The notes: generated from the sequence alone by a model not told the origin. Numbered from the stretch's first letter, positions 78 to 35,052 are shown. The stretch is 41,325 nt of DNA from an uncultured Alphaproteobacteria bacterium (GCA_944389185.1 CALXLL010000007.1:1-41325), one strand, 5' to 3'. Program-made: numbers and translations.

Positions 78-236
78 CTTGCATTTTCATTGTTGCTATT
101 TTTATGTCCGATAACAAAAGGACACAATATGAGACTTTTTAATATAAATATTTATTGTTGTCAGTCTTTCCATTAAATTTTTAATGTAACTGAACACTTG
201 CTTTCTATAAAAAACATTAACTAAACGAGAACTATT

Positions 237-1661
237 ATGAACGTCAGATTATTTAATACTATGTCCAGAAAAATAGAAGATTTTAAACCTCTTTCAGCAG
301 GTAAAGTCGGTTTTTATGGGTGTGGTCCAACTGTATATCATTATGCTCATATTGGGAATCTTAGGTCTTTCATACAAAACGATATATTAAAACGTATGCT
401 GATTGAAAACGGTTATGAAGTTACGCACGTTATGAACATAACCGACGTAGGCCATTTAACAAGTGATGAAGATACTGGTGAAGATAAAATGGAAAAAGGG
501 GCTGCCAGAGATAATAAATCTGTCTGGGAAATTGCTAAGTTTTATACGGACCAATTTCTTCATGATTTTGATGATTTAAACTTAATTCGCCCGAATTTTA
601 TGCCCAAGGCTACGGATTATATACAAGAGCAAATAGACATAATAAAAAAGCTTGAAGCGCTTGGGTATACTTATAAAATAGAAGACGACGGTATTTATTA
701 TGATACAAGTAAGTTTCCAGAATATGGAAAGTTAACGGGCGGCAGTTTGGCAGGTAATCGTGCAGGTGCCAGAGTCGAGTTTAATTCATTAAAACGTAAT
801 CCGACGGATTTTGCTTTATGGAAGTTTTCACCGAAAAACGAAAAAAGGCAGATGGAATGGGACAGCCCTTGGGGTATAGGTTTTCCTGGTTGGCACACTG
901 AATGCTGCGCAATGAGTATGAAACTGCTGGGTAATCACTTTGATATTCATACTGGTGGCGAAGACTTATCAAGGGTTCACCATAATAATGAAATAGCTCA
1001 GTCTGAACCTATTGTTGGTTCACCGTGGGTTAAATATTGGCTTCACACCGGATTCTTGGTTGACAGAAGCGGTGAAAAAATGAGTAAATCCAAAGGTGAA
1101 TTCTTGGGTATGGATGCTTTGCGTAAGCGAGGTTATGATCCTATGGCTTATAAATATCTTGTGCTATTAAGCCATTTTCAAGCTCAATTAGCATTTTCTT
1201 GGGAAGGATTAGAATCTGCCGCAAACGGTTATAAAAACATTGTAAAGAAAATAGCCGCTATGTTAGAACAAGCAGAAAAAGGAAGCGTTGATAAATCTGT
1301 ATATGATGTTTGGCATGATAAAATATTAAGCGCTGTATCCGACAATATGAAAACTGCGGAAGCCTTAGTTATTATTCAAGAAATGTTGAAAGATTCTGAT
1401 ATAAACGCAGCTACAAAGATTTCTTTGTTTGAATTTATAGACAGATTACTTGGCTTACAGTTTATAGATAGAGCAAAAAAATTAAAATCTGTTAATGATG
1501 AAGTAGCGCCAAAAGACATTCAAGAACTTGCCGATCAACGCACAAAAGCCAAAGAAGATAAAAACTGGCAACTTGCGGATCAGCTTCGCGATAAAATAGA
1601 TGCGGCAGGTTGGCAAATTGTTGATACAAAGGACGGAGTTAAACTGCTAAAAAAAGCATAA
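237..1661 (+). CDS. cysS: Cysteinyl-tRNA synthetase
   Basis: This class I aminoacyl-tRNA synthetase charges tRNA-Cys in the cytoplasm. The 474 residues match the usual 460-480. The HIGH signature reads HIGN at residues 38-41, just after the GCGPTVY segment whose Cys29 is a zinc ligand. WHTECCAM carries further zinc-site residues, and KMSKSK is the second ATP signature. The C-terminal part holds the helical anticodon-binding region. The start at 237 gives the expected N-terminus (MNVRLFNTMSRKIE); its ribosome binding site (ACGAGAA) is weak. No clear promoter was found in the 159 bases after tRNA-Ser, so read-through from the tRNA is possible. Identification is secure. Confidence 0.97.
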   Translation: MNVRLFNTMSRKIEDFKPLSAGKVGFYGCGPTVYHYAHIGNLRSFIQNDILKRMLIENGYEVTHVMNITDVGHLTSDEDTGEDKMEKGAARDNKSVWEIAKFYTDQFLHDFDDLNLIRPNFMPKATDYIQEQIDIIKKLEALGYTYKIEDDGIYYDTSKFPEYGKLTGGSLAGNRAGARVEFNSLKRNPTDFALWKFSPKNEKRQMEWDSPWGIGFPGWHTECCAMSMKLLGNHFDIHTGGEDLSRVHHNNEIAQSEPIVGSPWVKYWLHTGFLVDRSGEKMSKSKGEFLGMDALRKRGYDPMAYKYLVLLSHFQAQLAFSWEGLESAANGYKNIVKKIAAMLEQAEKGSVDKSVYDVWHDKILSAVSDNMKTAEALVIIQEMLKDSDINAATKISLFEFIDRLLGLQFIDRAKKLKSVNDEVAPKDIQELADQRTKAKEDKNWQLADQLRDKIDAAGWQIVDTKDGVKLLKKA

Positions 1662-5157: not shown

Positions 5158-7083
5158 TTATACATGCCCTTTTAGTGCGATATAAATCTGTCCAAGCTCT
5201 GTTTTCAAAATCGTTGCGGATAAAGCGTCCGAGTTATCCGCTTGTTTTGCGCTAGTTAATACTTTATCAAAACCATGGACGAATTGAGAAGCTTGGGAAC
5301 GAAATACAGCGTCTGATTTCAGCAAATCACGTATTTTCTTTTTATCTGCGGCATTTAATATTTTTGCTAACCATTTAGAAAAAATAGTTTTATCGCCTGC
5401 GTGATATTTTTTCCATACTACGTCTGGTATTTCTGCACCGATTGCTTTTGTTAAATCCATAGATTGTTCATGCATCTTTTCAAACAGTTTTTCACTTTGC
5501 TTTAAGAAATCTTGGCTACTTACTTTACCGAAAGTTGAAATAGGCGGAGTGTTAATTGCGTCCATAGGTGCAGTTGCCCGTGCAACCATCATCTGCTTAT
5601 TTAAAGTTTGCATGGTATTAACGGCTTTTGCATAGTCTGACATTAAATCAATCATTTGCTGGCGTGATTGGCCGGCTAGATTTTCAAGGCTTCCGGCAGA
5701 TTCTGCGATTGCGGCAGTAGATTCCGCCACAGTCGTCTTCATTAAGTTTATTTTTTCATTTAAACCTGCGACAATTCTTTCCAAATTATCGTTTGTTTCC
5801 AAAGAACTGCTGGATAAATCGGGCAGGGCAGAATAATATTTTTCTATCAATTCAGATAAAGGTTTCAACTGAGCAGTTGTTTCTGCCGACATTTTTATAA
5901 GATTTGCAGACTGCCCAGACAACTGAGTATGAGCCGTATTCATTTCCATTAAAGTTTCTCGGACGCTGGTTGCCATAGTCCTTACAGAATCAGAAAACGC
6001 CCCTGCAGCCGTTTTTGTGTTTTCTAGCGTTGTATTAGCAACACCAGAAACGGTTTTCAACTCTGACACGACGCTTGTCGCAAAGTCTTTTATTTCACCG
6101 TTAAATCTATTGGTTAAGGCAGCCAATTCAGACGACAGATTTCTTACAGAAGCCTCTGTGTCTGCTGCTGTCTTCATCAAGAAATCTACCGCATCTGTTA
6201 AAGCACGAACTTGACGTTCTATTGAAGATTCAGATAGGCGTATTTGACCAGCTACAACATTTGCTGTGTTTGTTAATGTATTCATCTGGTTTGTTAATTG
6301 TTTCTTAGATTCTTTACTGAAATCTGATAGATTATTTAAATAATCTTTTACCAAATTATTGTTCTTATTTAATACGTTTTCATAATTTGCCGCTGAAGTC
6401 TTTATTTCATTAAATCCGTTTGTTGCGTTATTGGTCAAAGATGCAATTTTATTTTCAATAACTTCAGAATCTTCAATCAGTTTCTTTATCTGGTCAGAAT
6501 TATTATTAAAAGCGTTTTCTAAGCTATTACTTAACGTTTTGCTGTTTTGTATCCAAGAATCAAGCTGGGTATTTATATTATTTGTCTTTTGTTCCGTGTC
6601 TTTCGTGACAGAATCTATGTTGTCTAATAAATGAGTTATTCTATCTGTAAAATCTTGAGTTCTGGCATCTATATCTTGCCAAGCTTGTGAAGAAACTACA
6701 CCGCTTAAACCGTTCAGTGTATTATCCAATCGTTGGGACATAATCACCATTTTTTTTGTCGTATTTTCCGATAATTCATTCATTTCAAGAGTTTTTTGTA
6801 TCAAAGCTTCTTTAAGACTATTCGCCGTTGCGATTTTATCGTTTAAATCCGAGCTAATTACATGAAAGAAATCATCTATTTTTTTCATTTCATCTGCCAG
6901 AATAGTATGTAAAACGTTCGCAGCGTCGCGTATTTTTGCGCGTTCTGGATTTGTCATAAGCAAAAGTAAAGATTCCATTGTCTTCTGAGACTTTCTTGAT
7001 ATAAAAAATAATACTATTAAAGCAATAAATAATAAAGCGGCCAATGCACACATACCGATAAGCATAATTTGCATAATATCCAT
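5158..7083 (-). CDS. Membrane-anchored long coiled-coil protein of unknown function
   Basis: The protein is 641 residues from ATG 7083, which has GGGGGAG just upstream. One strong membrane helix lies at about residues 5-30, followed by basic RKSQK, so the bulk is probably cytoplasmic. Residues 60-510 are almost entirely predicted helix rich in Ser, Thr, Asn, Ala and Leu, with heptad-like patterns resembling chemoreceptor or apolipoprotein-type coiled coils. There is no recognisable methyl-accepting signalling hairpin tip and no HAMP domain. The last 115 residues look globular (IPDVVWKKYHAGDKTIFSKW onward) and remind me of the C-terminal domain of long alphaproteobacterial proteins annotated as hypothetical; that resemblance is from memory. 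Function is unknown; a structural or envelope-positioning role is only a guess. Confidence 0.8.
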   Translation of the reverse strand: MDIMQIMLIGMCALAALLFIALIVLFFISRKSQKTMESLLLLMTNPERAKIRDAANVLHTILADEMKKIDDFFHVISSDLNDKIATANSLKEALIQKTLEMNELSENTTKKMVIMSQRLDNTLNGLSGVVSSQAWQDIDARTQDFTDRITHLLDNIDSVTKDTEQKTNNINTQLDSWIQNSKTLSNSLENAFNNNSDQIKKLIEDSEVIENKIASLTNNATNGFNEIKTSAANYENVLNKNNNLVKDYLNNLSDFSKESKKQLTNQMNTLTNTANVVAGQIRLSESSIERQVRALTDAVDFLMKTAADTEASVRNLSSELAALTNRFNGEIKDFATSVVSELKTVSGVANTTLENTKTAAGAFSDSVRTMATSVRETLMEMNTAHTQLSGQSANLIKMSAETTAQLKPLSELIEKYYSALPDLSSSSLETNDNLERIVAGLNEKINLMKTTVAESTAAIAESAGSLENLAGQSRQQMIDLMSDYAKAVNTMQTLNKQMMVARATAPMDAINTPPISTFGKVSSQDFLKQSEKLFEKMHEQSMDLTKAIGAEIPDVVWKKYHAGDKTIFSKWLAKILNAADKKKIRDLLKSDAVFRSQASQFVHGFDKVLTSAKQADNSDALSATILKTELGQIYIALKGHV

Positions 7084-7182
7084 TTTCTCCCCCAATATAA
7101 TTATTACATATACGACATTTTTATATGTCTTGCAGTTATTTAAAGTTTATACTAAAATCCTTCAAATAAAGCAAGGGTATAA

Positions 7183-28563: not shown

Positions 28564-28619
28564 TAAGGTATAAAGATTAGGAAGTATTTCTTAAAATTGA
28601 ATAAAAAGAGAAGGTGAAT

Positions 28620-29033
28620 ATGTCTGGGAAAGCATATATAGCATCATCGGTAGACGAGCATATTGGTCAAAGGGTTCAGCTTCGTAGAATAATGATGGGG
28701 TTATCACAGAAAGACCTTGCGAAGATATGCGGTGTTACGTTTCAGCAGATACAGAAATACGAGACTGCAGGGAACAGGATTTCCGCGTCCAGGTTATTTG
28801 ATTTAAGTCAAGCATTACAGACGCCAGTATCATTTTTCTTTTCTGGGTTACCCGGTAACATACCGGAAGAGACGCGTTATAATCGTTCCACCCGCGTATC
28901 CGAGCAGACACCAGAAGATCCCTTGGGTAAGAATGAATCTTTGCAATTAATAAACTTATACTGGAAATTACCGAATGACGAGCAACGCAAGATGGTAATG
29001 AAGATGTTAAAAAGCTTGAACGGGACGGAATAG
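28620..29033 (+). CDS. XRE-family transcriptional regulator
   Basis: The 137-residue protein has an N-terminal helix-turn-helix of the Cro/CI type (residues 14-68: IGQRVQLRRIMMGLSQKDLA, VTFQQIQKYETAGNRISASR). This is the pattern common in alphaproteobacterial cell-cycle-linked regulators. A short C-terminal part (LINLYWKLPNDEQRKMVMKM) probably dimerises. ATG 28620 is preferred over GTG 28614, since GAGAAGG is well placed upstream. Targets are unknown; it is divergent from gpmI and may also control its own promoter. Confidence 0.88.
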   Translation: MSGKAYIASSVDEHIGQRVQLRRIMMGLSQKDLAKICGVTFQQIQKYETAGNRISASRLFDLSQALQTPVSFFFSGLPGNIPEETRYNRSTRVSEQTPEDPLGKNESLQLINLYWKLPNDEQRKMVMKMLKSLNGTE

Positions 29034-29037
29034 GATA

Positions 29038-29064
29038 AAAAAACTCACATTAAGTGAGTTTTTT
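29038..29064. terminator. Bidirectional terminator after the XRE gene
   Basis: AAACTCAC and GTGAGTTT pair around ATTAA, flanked by A and T runs. It begins 5 bases after the XRE stop and reaches the stop of the convergent secreted protein gene. Confidence 0.85.
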
Positions 29065-30493
29065 ATTGACTTAGTTTAGATACAGCACCACTTACAATAG
29101 GTATCGTTTTATCCACGCTTATATAGCTTTCTGCAGTATACTCTTTAATAGGAGTTGCTGTTACTCTTAGCCCGTTCACGCATCTTACATATTCAGATCT
29201 TTCCAATTTTGTCCAACACTGATCTGACACATTTAATGCGGGGCTACCGGTTTTACCATATGCTAATTCTTGTTTGGTTACCTCTACTGACATACGACAT
29301 TGTTTTGTTTCTTTATCGAATATCTGTGTTCCTTCACAAGTTATACAAACACCATCAGAATTAACGCCTTTTTGAACAGAATCGTTACAAGCAACGCAGG
29401 TTAGATTAGTATTAGAAGAGAAACCTTGTGCTTCGTCTTTGCAACGATATTGATAGCAATTCATTCCCTTTGTATAATATTTTACATAACTTGCAGAATT
29501 GGGCAACCCTTCCCAACCTTTACAAGGAAGAATTGTTCCATTTTGATTATTATTTTGATTCTGATTTGCTATTCCATCGTTCAGCACACATTTATCGCCC
29601 TCAGGATGATAACCAGATAAACACAAAACGCCGTCTAAACTATCAAAAATAGTAGCAACATGTATATCAGCCTCTCTTTCAGCCCCAGTATGATAACCAA
29701 CACGTGCTACCATCGGTTTTGTAATAACACCGTGCCCATCAGAAGTAAAACTAACTACACCAAAAAAAGCATTATGTTCTGTTTTATATGCATTGCATTT
29801 ATATTTTCCGGGATTTGTAAAAAAGAATACATCATTTTCAACTTCAGGAAACTTATTAAAGTCTACTTTCATAACATTTGTTGAATCATCAACAGATAAT
29901 TTTAAATCAGAAAAAGCAGATTGGGAAAGTATGGTATTATCCACTAATTGTGCATTTTCTACGGAACAACCTTCACCGCCATATCCATCACTACAAACCC
30001 AAAAACAAACCCTTGTATCATTATTTGGTAAATGATATCTAAGCCAAGGTCTATCCACTAAAGAATTACGAATTGCTTGAACCTGTGTTGCACAAAATTT
30101 TGCACCATGATCAGCAATTTCGTGTGCAACCAATAACAAAACTGCATGTTGATCTCTTTTTCCTTTGCTCACACCAACACCCTGATTACCATCCTGAGAA
30201 CAAAGCCCATTACCTATGCACGCTGTTTCAGGTAAATTGAATTCATAACATTGATAATCAGATATTGTCGCATTTTCTAATCCCCATATTTTACTTACAA
30301 ATTGTGCCTTTGAAAGCATGCAAGAACTACAAGCATCAGTATAAGTGCCAGTTGAGGAAGTGGCAACAAACTCCTCTGTTAAATCGCAAACATCCAAACA
30401 TAAATCCGTATATGTTTTTGCTTTTAATGAGGAAGTAAGTAAAAACGTTCCTAAACAAACAGACGATAATAAAATTAACTTTTGTTTTTTCAT
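29063..30493 (-). CDS. Cysteine-rich secreted protein, unknown
   Basis: The 476-residue protein has a signal peptide (KKQKLILLSSVCLGTFLLTSSLKA). The mature part is very Cys-rich, with an early cluster (DLCLDVCDL, CSSCM), an EGF-like patch (CFWVCSDGYGGEGC), a Asn/Gln linker around residue 315, then CVACNDSV, CITCEGTQIF and KQCRMS, which resemble small disulfide-knot repeats. VAHEIADHGAKFC is not a HExxH zinc protease motif. I recognise no family. It starts 11 bases after the 815-residue gene, with AAGAG upstream, so the two are co-transcribed. A surface or envelope role is inferred from the signal peptide and disulfide-like pattern. Confidence 0.8.
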   Translation of the reverse strand: MKKQKLILLSSVCLGTFLLTSSLKAKTYTDLCLDVCDLTEEFVATSSTGTYTDACSSCMLSKAQFVSKIWGLENATISDYQCYEFNLPETACIGNGLCSQDGNQGVGVSKGKRDQHAVLLLVAHEIADHGAKFCATQVQAIRNSLVDRPWLRYHLPNNDTRVCFWVCSDGYGGEGCSVENAQLVDNTILSQSAFSDLKLSVDDSTNVMKVDFNKFPEVENDVFFFTNPGKYKCNAYKTEHNAFFGVVSFTSDGHGVITKPMVARVGYHTGAEREADIHVATIFDSLDGVLCLSGYHPEGDKCVLNDGIANQNQNNNQNGTILPCKGWEGLPNSASYVKYYTKGMNCYQYRCKDEAQGFSSNTNLTCVACNDSVQKGVNSDGVCITCEGTQIFDKETKQCRMSVEVTKQELAYGKTGSPALNVSDQCWTKLERSEYVRCVNGLRVTATPIKEYTAESYISVDKTIPIVSGAVSKLSQ

Positions 30494-30504
30494 ATTTTTA
30501 ACTC

Positions 30505-32952
30505 TTATCTATAACATTTACCGTCAATCCATATACCATCTACGTATTCACAATGCTGTTCATACCAAGCGTCTGAAAATACACATGTATTATTAACAGC
30601 ATCAAACGTTGTATAATCTGTCGAACCCATTGCTTCATTCCATAAATCACAATTATGCTTTACACTGTTTTGAACACATATACCGTAATTTTCGCTATTT
30701 TTTGAATACGTGCTGCCAGACGAGCCTGCAAAAACATTTTGATAAAAACTTTCTTCCCTTGTTGCATTCATAATAGACGCTTCAAGCTGACCTTCTTGTG
30801 TGCTATACCAAATACCATCATTTTCTTCACATTTTTCATCAAACATTATTGATAAATCTGTTCGTATAGATTCAACCAATCTACTTATGCTTGATTCTAT
30901 CATTGGATCTAAATTAGTCAGGCCACCATTTGAATCACCACAATATATTGTCTTTCTGGCGTTTACCTGCGCCCATATCGTATTAGTAATATTATCATCT
31001 ATGCCGTCAGTGCTGTTTCCAATACTCATAGTGCGACAACCCCATGGATATTCACCACCTTCCACGGAACTTGGTGTGCACAGTTGCGTCAAGAAATTAG
31101 ATATCCCAGTTTCGCATCCTTCGGCCACTTTAATTGTATCAACAGAATTAACATAATTTAATAAAGACTCTAAACCACAAAATCTAGATTCTCCCACTAA
31201 TTTACCGTCATTGTCAAATTTACAGTCACTACCATTCCCATACAATGCAGCACAAGCACTAACTTTTTCTGCGCACATATCACGAGCCGCCAACGCACTT
31301 AACGCACCCACTGCCTGTGCAGTCGTATTATCAAAACTCTTTAACGCATTAGATTGCGTATCATAGCACTCTGCCATCGTGCTGACACAAGAAGATTTTA
31401 TTTCTTCTATTTTTGCGTCTTGTGCTTGCGCTATTTCTATCAAAGCCGTTCTTTTAAATTCTTCCCATACGATATCTGATATATCACGACAAGTGTCTAA
31501 AGCAGATTCGGCAAATATTCTTTTTGAATCCAAGAAAGAATTAAACTCTGAATTTTGCGCCAATACATCAGCATCACCATTTAAAATTATCATGTCTGAC
31601 AACTGGAATAATCGCGGTGAATAAATAGGTTCACCAGTATTTATGTTTATATAAGCACCAGAATAATCTAAGCAACGCGTATAATTCGCACCACATGCAA
31701 CATCTGCCGTTAAAGCAGTTCTGACGTTTGCAATGCATGTATTAACGTCGTCGGAATTATGCGAACGATATTCTTCTAATCTTGCTTCCCTTAAATATTT
31801 TTCAGCGGTTCTAACGGTTTGCTCAATCGCTTCTTTCTGGGCGTTTATGCTCTTTTCATAAGTATTACAATCTTGCGTAATAAGAATATTATACGCACTT
31901 TTTGCCATAGTTAATACCGCATCACTTTCACAAGAATCAGCAATTAATTGTAAACATTGCTTATCAGCTTCTGTAAATAACGAATTTCCTTCCAAATCTG
32001 CCAAATTAACGTTGTTGTTTTCACCGAATAATCCACCGTTTCCACCGCCCCAAATATCATCAATATCGACAGTAAAGTCAAAATTAAGATTATTCATCAT
32101 TTCTTCCAAAGACACTGTATTAGAAGTAGTTTTTTTCTTTCCAGACAACAAATCACCAATCTCGGTCAACATGCTTGCGGCGGCACTTGTATCGTTTTTT
32201 ATTGCCTGTTCACCTTCTGACGCAGTATACATAGCATTAACTTCCGCAGCAGACATACCAACAGCGTTTAAATTATTATCTTGAAACTTCGCCAACAATG
32301 TTTTTGCTTCATCAAAAGCAGATTCCATATCACGAAACTCTATAAATCTATCGCTGCAAAAACACCTGCGATATGTATCGTTTGCATTTGCACAAAACTG
32401 ATCCATGCAAGTCGCATACGCTTCCCTGCAAGCAGAATAACCGCCACCAATTTTAGAAGTATCCGTAAAAATAGCGGTTGCACGAGAAGTTGCCGCACGA
32501 GAAGCATTTATAACATTGGAACTTCCTGTTGCAGCGGTTCTTACCACCGTTCCCGCTGACCTTGCAACAGAAGGCGCAGTAACAGCAGCAGACCTTGCAG
32601 CTGTAGTATTTATTCTGCCTCCCGTTCCAGAAGAAACAGCAGATCTTGAAACAGTTCCCGCCCCCCTGGCAGATGCGGTATTTGAAGTAATTACCGGTAA
32701 GGTCCCGGCCCTTGAAACAACACCGCTTGGTCGATTTGTTGCGGTTCTGGATACGATTTCCGATTCGACTTCGGAATCAACAAAACTTCCACGTTGAACT
32801 TCATTGCCTGCCGAACGAGCCGTTGATACATTTATAACAGGATTTGATGCAGCCCTGGGATTTGGAGCCTGTTCAGCCATAGCATTAAACGATAACGCAC
32901 CACCATAAAAGGCAGATAAAATAATCAGAAAAGATTTACAGATATTCGTCAA
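30505..32952 (-). CDS. Large secreted cysteine-rich protein with Arg-Ala repeat region, TTG start
   Basis: The 815-residue protein has a signal peptide ending SFNAMA. Residues 29-161 are low-complexity, with Arg followed by Ser/Ala/Gly-Ala every 7-15 residues (ARSAG, SRAG, ARGAG, SRSA, ARSA, VRTA), and Lys is absent from the segment. A Cys motif follows at 174-199 (C-x7-C-x4-C-x9-C-x1-C). The rest is helical with scattered paired Cys, ending CEYVDGIWIDGKCY. I recognise no family. The only start that keeps the signal peptide in frame is TTG at 32952; an ATG 20 bases upstream is one base out of frame after an A6 run. Likely exported and disulfide-stabilised. Confidence 0.8.
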   Translation of the reverse strand: MTNICKSFLIILSAFYGGALSFNAMAEQAPNPRAASNPVINVSTARSAGNEVQRGSFVDSEVESEIVSRTATNRPSGVVSRAGTLPVITSNTASARGAGTVSRSAVSSGTGGRINTTAARSAAVTAPSVARSAGTVVRTAATGSSNVINASRAATSRATAIFTDTSKIGGGYSACREAYATCMDQFCANANDTYRRCFCSDRFIEFRDMESAFDEAKTLLAKFQDNNLNAVGMSAAEVNAMYTASEGEQAIKNDTSAAASMLTEIGDLLSGKKKTTSNTVSLEEMMNNLNFDFTVDIDDIWGGGNGGLFGENNNVNLADLEGNSLFTEADKQCLQLIADSCESDAVLTMAKSAYNILITQDCNTYEKSINAQKEAIEQTVRTAEKYLREARLEEYRSHNSDDVNTCIANVRTALTADVACGANYTRCLDYSGAYININTGEPIYSPRLFQLSDMIILNGDADVLAQNSEFNSFLDSKRIFAESALDTCRDISDIVWEEFKRTALIEIAQAQDAKIEEIKSSCVSTMAECYDTQSNALKSFDNTTAQAVGALSALAARDMCAEKVSACAALYGNGSDCKFDNDGKLVGESRFCGLESLLNYVNSVDTIKVAEGCETGISNFLTQLCTPSSVEGGEYPWGCRTMSIGNSTDGIDDNITNTIWAQVNARKTIYCGDSNGGLTNLDPMIESSISRLVESIRTDLSIMFDEKCEENDGIWYSTQEGQLEASIMNATREESFYQNVFAGSSGSTYSKNSENYGICVQNSVKHNCDLWNEAMGSTDYTTFDAVNNTCVFSDAWYEQHCEYVDGIWIDGKCYR

Positions 32953-33008: not shown

Positions 33009-33608
33009 TTATTCTATGCAACAATTAACAGCATTTTTGACCCATTCGCCCAAACGATGAACAGTTGATTTAGATTTTTTCATATCTTCTTTAACTTCTT
33101 TCGCTTTTTTTGCTTTTGAATCACCTTTAACTTGACAAGCTGCTATTGCGCCTTGATAAAAATCTGGTTCTGCTCTTTTTACGCCGTCTAAATCAATCAA
33201 GTCCATATTTATGCCCCAAAACAAAGAATACAATTCATAAGACTTATTAAATAAATTATATGCATCTTCTGTATTCCCTGCGGATAAAGCTTTGGTTCCT
33301 ACTTCCATTAACCTCATTGAAGCGGCTAACAAATGCTTGGATATGCACCAAACTTCACCATTTTCATTGCTAGATTTTTTTACTATTCTTTCCATTAATT
33401 CTTTTCGCATATCACGAACAGTATTTATCAAATCATAAAAACCAGTTTTCTTGGTTTTAGCACCGCTGAAGAAGAAATGTTCTTCCAAAGATATTAAATT
33501 CATCAAAGCAATAGACAAATCTTGATCAGAAGACAAGTCCAAAGGATTCACTTTTTTAGATTCATCGACTTTTTTTATCATTTCGTCCATAGTCATTTTT
33601 TTCTTCAT
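33009..33608 (-). CDS. Soluble helical protein, unknown; resembles a Patescibacteria-type gene
   Basis: The 199-residue protein has no signal peptide or membrane helix. NPLDLSSDQDLSIALMNLIS, EEHFFFSGAKTKKT, WCISKHLLAASMRLMEVG and YNLFNKSYELYSLFWGINM give a mostly helical, TPR-like fold, ending with a Lys-rich stretch and CC near the C-terminus. I associate this text with a conserved protein found beside the CPVC membrane protein gene in Patescibacteria (CPR) genomes; this is from memory. AAAGGATG precedes the ATG, and the membrane protein gene ends 28 bases upstream. Function unknown. Confidence 0.72.
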   Translation of the reverse strand: MKKKMTMDEMIKKVDESKKVNPLDLSSDQDLSIALMNLISLEEHFFFSGAKTKKTGFYDLINTVRDMRKELMERIVKKSSNENGEVWCISKHLLAASMRLMEVGTKALSAGNTEDAYNLFNKSYELYSLFWGINMDLIDLDGVKRAEPDFYQGAIAACQVKGDSKAKKAKEVKEDMKKSKSTVHRLGEWVKNAVNCCIE

Positions 33609-33636
33609 TTTTTACATCCTTTTTCATCAGCGATTA

Positions 33637-34152
33637 TTAACATTCCGTCAAAAACCAGAATACAATAGTAGCAATTATTAAGAAAGACAAAGGAACAACT
33701 ACTTTTTGAAAAGCAAACTTTGCATGTCCGCCGTTATCACGCTTAATTTTTACATACCATCTGGCACCAAGATAAAAAGCAACCGTTCCGACAATAGAAC
33801 CAAGTAAGAACTTATCTATACCCCATAAAGTGCAAGCCCCGTATTCTATTACACCAGGGATAAAATACACGCTGCCCAACAAAGCATAATACAAAACAAA
33901 AGGAACTATTATTTGCCAAAAAACGCTTTTAACTCCGTGCTTACGCAGCCAACCAGCGGTCCAGAAGAATAAGGACAAAGTCAACCCACCGGCCCAAATA
34001 CCTGTTATAACATCATCTACACCCAATAATCTGGCACCTTCCAGCCCGGCACCGACTGCCACAGTGCAAACAGGGCAAACCGCAAAAGCAGCAGGAATTA
34101 TCATTAACCCAGCTAATGCACATAATAATAACTTTGATATTTTTATTGTCAT
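33637..34152 (-). CDS. Multi-pass membrane protein with CPVC motif, unknown
   Basis: The 171-residue protein has a signal-like first segment (residues 1-24) followed immediately by CPVC at 26-29. TVAVGAGLEGARLLGVDDVI then leads into four more hydrophobic helices, at about 48-68, 76-100, 112-132 and 147-168. CxxC at the outer face suggests redox or metal binding, but that is inference. The CPVCTVAVGAG..LGVDD start resembles a membrane protein I recall from Patescibacteria genomes, where it also lies by the 199-residue gene. It has its own promoter at 34181-34210 and a GGAAAGG ribosome binding site. Confidence 0.75.
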   Translation of the reverse strand: MTIKISKLLLCALAGLMIIPAAFAVCPVCTVAVGAGLEGARLLGVDDVITGIWAGGLTLSLFFWTAGWLRKHGVKSVFWQIIVPFVLYYALLGSVYFIPGVIEYGACTLWGIDKFLLGSIVGTVAFYLGARWYVKIKRDNGGHAKFAFQKVVVPLSFLIIATIVFWFLTEC

Positions 34153-34180: not shown

Positions 34181-34210
34181 ATGATACAAGAAATCCGACA
34201 TTTAGGTCAA
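34181..34210 (-). promoter_or_regulatory. Sigma70-type promoter for the four-gene accessory run
   Basis: On the minus strand TTGACC (34210-34205) and TATCAT (34186-34181) are 18 bases apart. The -35 overlaps the rsmH 3' end. A leader of about 20 nt carries GGAAAGG before the ATG at 34152. Confidence 0.68.
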
Positions 34211-35052
34211 CATGATTTTTTCACGGCTCTTAAATGTGCAGATCTTGACCTTGGGTTATCTGCAAGCTCTTTTTCATCTGGTGTATACGTTTTTAATAAT
34301 TCAAAATCTGGTTCTTTAACAACTGGCAAACGAGGATCACCGACTGGACTTGTCCATTTTTTAAATACGTTTTTAACAAATCTATCTTCCAAAGAATGAA
34401 ACGTTACGCACACACATATACCACCCGTATTTAGTAACCCAGGAACCGAATTCAAAGCCTTTTCTATTTCACCCATTTCATCATTAACTGCTATGCGTAA
34501 AGCTTGGAATACCGGTGCAACATCTTTGGGATTAAGTATCAAATCTTTTAACTCAAATGTTGTTTCTGGCAGTTTTTCCTTTATAGCTTGTGCGATTACA
34601 TTTGCTTTTTTTACGTCCCCGTATTCTTTTAAGACGCGCGCGATATCTTGAGCAGAAAGTTCTTGTATAAGCTGAGCCGCACTGGTTCCACTTTCAGACA
34701 TGCGCATATCTAAATCAGCATTCATACGAAAAGAAAAGCCTCGTTCTGCATTATCTATCTGCATAGAAGATATACCTAAATCAAAAACTATCGCATCAAA
34801 TTGCTTAGTCTGTTCTGCCATACAAGAAAACGGCTTTTGCACAAAAACGAACTTATCTTTATACTTATCTGATAATTTTTTTGCATCAATTACTACATTT
34901 GGATCTTTATCGAAAGCAACGACCGAAGCGCCTGACTCTAAAAAAGCTTTTGAATATCCGCCTGCACCGAAAGTAGCGTCTAAAATTATTTTCCCCCGAA
35001 CGTCACCCAAGGTTTCTAATACTTTACTTAAAAGCACAGGTATATGTTTCAT
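34207..35052 (-). CDS. rsmH: 16S rRNA (cytosine-1402-N4)-methyltransferase RsmH
   Basis: RsmH methylates N4 of C1402 at the ribosomal P site. The 281 residues show HIPVLLSKVLETL, the AdoMet site ILDATFGAGGYSKAFLE, the DLGISSMQID segment, FRMNADLDMRM, and the C-terminal VTFHSLEDRFVKNVFK. The ATG overlaps the dnaE stop by one base (TAATG), so the genes are coupled. rsmH usually sits in the mraZ-ftsL division cluster, so its place behind dnaE is unusual. Confidence 0.96.
   Translation of the reverse strand: MKHIPVLLSKVLETLGDVRGKIILDATFGAGGYSKAFLESGASVVAFDKDPNVVIDAKKLSDKYKDKFVFVQKPFSCMAEQTKQFDAIVFDLGISSMQIDNAERGFSFRMNADLDMRMSESGTSAAQLIQELSAQDIARVLKEYGDVKKANVIAQAIKEKLPETTFELKDLILNPKDVAPVFQALRIAVNDEMGEIEKALNSVPGLLNTGGICVCVTFHSLEDRFVKNVFKKWTSPVGDPRLPVVKEPDFELLKTYTPDEKELADNPRSRSAHLRAVKKSC

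Follow-up and report, generated by a model that had tools for sequence, protein, structure and literature searches.

The window analysed here, a stretch of 41,325 nucleotides, contains two adjacent minus-strand genes encoding exported proteins of 815 and 476 residues, here called p815 and p476 (Table 1). The first-pass annotation had reported this pair, and the presence, coordinates, shared direction and lengths of the two open reading frames, as well as the gap of 11 bases between them, were confirmed; p815, which starts with TTG, is the upstream member. Two further upstream genes (33009–34152), encoding p199 and p171, had been left out of that annotation, and we rate them as more mechanistically informative.

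Ortholog matches and genome size assign the host to Candidatus Enterousia (order Rs-D84, Alphaproteobacteria). Its genome is 796 kb and 97% complete. An ortholog-alignment search recovered p815 orthologs of 43–59% identity in Candidatus Enterousia intestinigallinarum, avistercoris, excrementavium, merdequi and scatequi. Enterousia, of the order Rs-D84, is described as a group of genome-reduced gut Alphaproteobacteria without respiratory chains, for which dependence on partners has been proposed (PMC12306168).

The gene order dnaE-mraW-p171-p199-p815-(p476)-HTH-gpmI is conserved across 80 named-contig loci. ORFs were called in 67 of these for p199, 61 for p171, 74 for mraW, 73 for dnaE and 57 for the HTH gene, some of the missed calls reflecting short contigs or overlapping ORF calls. 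Promoter and terminator scans returned nothing usable. Elsewhere in the window (5161–7095), a 645-aa protein gave Pfam matches of the coiled-coil type only, below the curated cut-off.

Table 1. Features of the p815 locus, with four p815 paralogs from other contigs
Feature	Position	Strand	Remarks
HTH regulator	28614..29033	+	convergent with p476; conserved downstream neighbour
p476	29063..30493	-	exported, fast-evolving, Cys-rich, 476 aa; two beta-rich segments followed by a C-terminal module rich in Cys
p815	30505..32952	-	exported, 815 aa; signal peptide, linker, Cys-rich core
p815 domains	residues 1 to about 26; about 27-166; about 167-815		signal peptide; linker; core
p815 signature	32356..32430	-	C-x6-C-x4-C-x9-C-x-C (CREAYATCMDQFC...RRCFC, residues 175-199); Cys invariant in nine aligned paralogs
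p815 linker-coding region	32454..32874	-	Arg/Ser/Ala-rich, Lys-free, rich in R-[S/A/T/G]-A (about residues 27-166); from motif count
p199	33009..33608	-	signal peptide not evident; conserved association with p171, which extends beyond Rs-D84
p171	33637..34152	-	signal peptide; TM helices predicted, about four; C-x-V-C invariant; candidate for re-oxidation of DsbA
mraW (rsmH)	34207..35052	-	conserved upstream neighbour
Paralogs with C[TE]DI[QN][FM]	L010:6737-8929; L010:8967-11471; L014:8205-10988; L014:10992-14036		C-terminal motif

Architecture of p815 and p476

Sec-type signal peptides were read by eye on both proteins, as previously described, and a motif check found no lipobox in either. 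The many cysteines also noted earlier number 29 in p815 and 25 in p476. In p815, 28 of them lie beyond the signal peptide, giving the mature protein an even number, and all 28 are invariant in 77 of 77 aligned ortholog sequences. Counted over about residues 29–166, the linker proved to be free of lysine, as annotated, and carries 14 arginines and 6 acidic residues. R-[S/A/T/G]-A occurs there nine times against 1.4 expected, a count reached in 0 of 2000 linker shuffles. Recurrence of the Arg-(Ser/Ala/Gly)-Ala motif above chance is therefore upheld, but the regular spacing of 7–15 residues ascribed to it is not, since the actual spacing is irregular (5–27). The tight cysteine motif described in p815 likewise exists (Cys175, Cys182, Cys187, Cys197 and Cys199), although its first gap is C-x6-C and not C-x7-C. 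The linker is kept Arg-rich and Lys-poor in 79 orthologs (medians of 16 Arg, 1 Lys and 4 acidic residues). The core is strongly acidic, with 100 Asp/Glu versus 48 Arg plus Lys, and this pattern of basic linker and acidic core is also maintained in orthologs.

High cysteine content and total invariance could reflect binding of a metal or cofactor (Zn, Fe-S or heme) by the p815 family in place of disulfides. Motif counts, however, found no CxxCH in any protein examined, no CxxC in p815 and 0–1 CxxC in each of its paralogs. This scarcity counts against heme or Zn-ribbon roles, and multiheme cytochrome and Zn-ribbon identities were ruled out on these counts. Given also that p815 is exported and that the host's own genome encodes a DsbA-like protein with a CPYC motif, we consider metal or cofactor binding very improbable. 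The 28 invariant cysteines, the motif counts and the DsbA-like protein strongly suggest instead that the cysteines of p815 form disulfides, in agreement with the disulfide dependence proposed at first pass.

Consistent with the earlier statement that the two proteins belong to no recognised family, searches of Pfam, NCBIfam, PHROGs, PADLOC and PDB sequences found none for p815 or p476, and p815 matched no Pfam family at E <= 1, OmcB included. No S-layer or pilus match was obtained from Pfam, NCBIfam, PHROGs or the PDB, although an absent match does not exclude such a fold. PADLOC anti-phage models matched none of p815, p476 and p171, and p199 gave only an E of 0.018. The AF2 model of the p815 core is helical (mean pLDDT 79, pTM 0.60). 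Foldseek found no match to it at E <= 0.001; VIA-align returned a best Z of 7.6 (4u6u_B, rmsd 6.2, 108 aligned), a value that could reflect no more than a shared arrangement of helices.

For p476, the AF2 model (pLDDT 78) contains beta-rich segments and the Cys-rich C-terminal module. Each beta-rich segment ends in a patch of the C-x(n)-GY-x-G-x2-C type, and these conserved segments, together with the C-terminal module, correspond to the EGF-like and CxxC patches reported before. The protein is single-copy in its genome, with 12 of its cysteines invariant and a mean column identity of 18%. The model had no Foldseek match at E <= 0.001 and a best Z of 3.0. Residues of about 331–402 align with the Cys-rich domain of mGluR (8x0g_A, Z 2.8, rmsd 3.6, 51 aligned), but this match is very weak and no sequence relationship was found.

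Co-occurrence of the two genes in relatives is frequent but not universal. p476 was detected in 29 of 34 congeners, and the gene that follows p815 is of the p476 family in 61 of 80 loci. A different gene is found there in 8 loci (three of these genes being Cys-rich), and none was called in the other 11, contig edges included. Such loci would fit a view of p815 and p476 as functionally unrelated neighbours, with p476 a frequent local surface gene. Since p476 keeps its slot so often despite its low column identity, we regard that view as possible but the less probable one. We favor a role for p476 as an accessory, fast-diverging partner of p815 that may be exposed at the surface.

An order-restricted family of exported Cys-rich proteins

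The description of p815 and p476 as an isolated tandem pair does not stand: p476 is a variable neighbour, and p815 is one of 11 paralogs detected in its own genome, the count coming from stretches taken around matches. These paralogs lie on contigs 1, 2, 4 and 5 and together occupy 27 kb, or 3.4% of bases. Common to the family are a signal peptide, a linker that is rich in S/T/A/R and differs in length between members, a Cys-rich core and a CxxxYxxCM signature; one member is a short form of 368 aa. Across nine aligned paralogs, 14 cysteines are invariant. Four paralogs end alike, with a C[TE]DI[QN][FM] motif near the C-terminus (Table 1) that may be a tail for sorting or docking. The same genome also encodes a 766-aa protein with 61 cysteines (L011:1618-3918) that matches Flg_new and Ephrin_rec_like repeats, another Cys-rich surface class.

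In a FastTree phylogeny of 51 sequences, the p815, C4_3823, C4_39124 and C5_30391 types group according to locus rather than genome. For these paralog groups, which were sampled in several genomes, this clustering indicates that the duplications predate the compared species and were retained through genome reduction.

p815-type proteins were present in 34 of 34 congeners searched, and the paralog profile matched 113 of 114 Rs-D84 genomes sampled. Searched against 385 genomes of the class, the profile matched members of Rs-D84 and, weakly, one other genome (G226; E 1e-4 over 83 positions), a match that we judged to be chance; that genome is 10% contaminated. No credible family member was found in the ~380 other Alphaproteobacteria sampled, and the family is thus essentially confined to one order among the genomes sampled, as the term lineage-specific had implied. 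p815 belongs to a new, previously unnamed, order-restricted and expanded family of exported Cys-rich proteins. Given the share of a reduced genome devoted to this one exported family and its order-wide retention, the family is likely to serve a core function in this uncultured lineage of the gut.

p171, p199 and their possible role in disulfide formation

Only two cysteines of p171, C26 and C29, are invariant among 16 homologs, and they form the C-x-V-C motif. Hydropathy profiles show a signal peptide and four peaks in three homologs; the p171 of this locus gives fewer distinct peaks. No Pfam family matched p171, PF02600 included, and its identity as a DsbB homolog was rejected by profile comparison (hhalign probability 0.2). 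Its predicted organization recalls DsbB and VKOR, in that perhaps about four TM helices accompany a CxxC that is expected on the exported side. In those enzymes the CxxC stands where TM2 (DsbB) or TM4 (VKOR) begins, and a second conserved cysteine pair forms a CXnC (PMC11208910). In p171, by contrast, the CxxC precedes all mature TM helices. The CXnC pair is missing, and p171 could therefore act as an oxidase only by some other mechanism.

Neither DsbB nor VKOR turned up in any of the 40 genomes searched within the genus and order, while the positive controls were detected; the host's own genome had no DsbB match. In a sample of 240 Alphaproteobacteria, p171 matched 15 genomes; one match (G321, residues 31–75 in a 493-aa frame) was judged spurious and was left out of the p171-positive set, leaving 14 credible genomes in 7 families. 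DsbB was found in 0 of these 14 as against 201 of 226 p171-negative genomes (Fisher p 9e-13, a value that ignores kinship and anaerobic lifestyle), the DsbB-negative status of some genomes being deduced from their absence from the list of 201 positives. A DSBA match was present in 12 of the 14.

The p171-p199 pair also occurs in several other small-genome alphaproteobacterial families without a p815-like gene beside it. A second copy of the pair is present elsewhere in two genomes (G059/G060; L219, L214). In two non-Rs-D84 genomes, small exported proteins with CLFC (L218:6114-6494) or CPYC (L223:3448-3852) are encoded downstream of the pair, and the CPYC protein bears a weak likeness to TrbB/glutaredoxin models.

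This distribution suggests that p171, probably with p199, acts in the oxidative-folding apparatus, where it may replace the missing DsbB/VKOR. Oxidation of DsbA is a particular question at this locus, in bacteria reported to have no respiratory chain and here found without DsbB or VKOR, and p171 is a candidate gene for it. There is, however, close to an even chance that p171 is a reductant conduit or an unrelated membrane protein of the operon, with disulfides made chemically (e.g. by polysulfide) or by another enzyme. The lone CxxC is compatible with this, as are the patchy occurrence of p171 and the 25 of 240 genomes in which neither p171 nor DsbB was detected. Polysulfide can drive disulfide formation anaerobically (PMC11921322). 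On the other side stand the perfect mutual exclusion of p171 and DsbB in the sample, the DSBA matches in p171-positive genomes and the continuation of two p171-p199 operons into small exported CxxC proteins. A still broader proposal makes p171, with p199, the founder of a new class of membrane enzymes that generate disulfides. Such enzymes would take the place of DsbB/VKOR in small-genome Alphaproteobacteria that contain DsbA, and in Enterousia p171 would be linked directly to a new order-specific family of disulfide-stapled envelope proteins; we consider this proposal somewhat unlikely.

A possible envelope role and comparison with OmcB

In other Rs-D84 families, a homolog of p815 adjoins rseP-bamA (L184, L185, L186), has bamA in its vicinity (L187) or has both skp and bamA close by (L188). 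In Enterousia, one paralog adjoins lpxA-lpxB in 3 of 3 genomes examined (L193, L195, L198). Pfam searches confirmed M50, Omp85/POTRA, OmpH, LpxB and LpxA-type domains in the tested neighbours. These neighbours are the main reason for placing the family in outer-envelope biology. They are no more than suggestive, and p815 itself is located by mraW. The envelope role assigned at first pass thus draws support from neighbourhood and signal peptides only, which do not distinguish a periplasmic, surface or released location for p815.

Beside the lpx-linked paralog, L192:13254-17868 encodes a prepilin peptidase (Peptidase_A24) followed by proteins of 296, 368, 582 and 105 aa, mostly exported and without families; similar exported genes lie beside this paralog in two other genomes (G028, G087).

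Our main reading, to which we assign a probability of about 0.5, is that p815 is exported and serves the outer envelope as a structural or adhesive component, disulfide-stapled and OmcB-like in its working, with p171 as candidate DsbA re-oxidase. Following Sec export, as read from the signal peptide and the lack of a lipobox, as many as 14 disulfides would hold the acidic helical core together, and the DsbA-like protein is their probable source. The flexible, Lys-free, Arg-rich tail may then tether p815 electrostatically to anionic envelope material, for which the phosphates of lipid A, peptidoglycan or the acidic cores that sister paralogs carry are proposed. The ancient, locus-specific paralogs might jointly give this genome-reduced gut bacterium a coat, or a layer in the periplasm, that is reinforced by disulfides. 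The first-pass picture of a lineage-specific, disulfide-dependent envelope system is in this respect partly supported: the lineage restriction holds and disulfides are strongly suggested, but the system is not an isolated pair.

Alternatively, the p815 family could consist of adhesins or released factors whose Arg-rich tails bind anionic glycans of partner or host cells, with paralogs adding breadth of binding. The basic N-terminal tail of OmcB binds heparan sulfate-like glycans and carries adhesin activity (PMC2229832), and the suggested dependence of Rs-D84 on partners (PMC12306168) would suit such a function, as would the divergence of paralog C-termini and the fast evolution of p476. Yet the comparable paralogs are ancient and locus-specific and not variable sets, all core cysteines of p815 are frozen, and no dedicated secretion route was identified. 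We therefore consider adhesins or released factors an unlikely explanation and retain the structural envelope reading.

OmcB is an exported Cys-rich protein with a disulfide-based envelope role in the reduced-genome, host-associated chlamydiae. p815 is unrelated to it in sequence, has no Pfam match, and differs in its acidic helical core, its 11 paralogs and its phylum. Like OmcB, p815 is exported and Cys-rich and carries a basic N-terminal tail, and by analogy with the chlamydial outer membrane complex (COMC) its family may likewise act in the envelope by way of disulfides, here too in a host-associated bacterium with a reduced genome.
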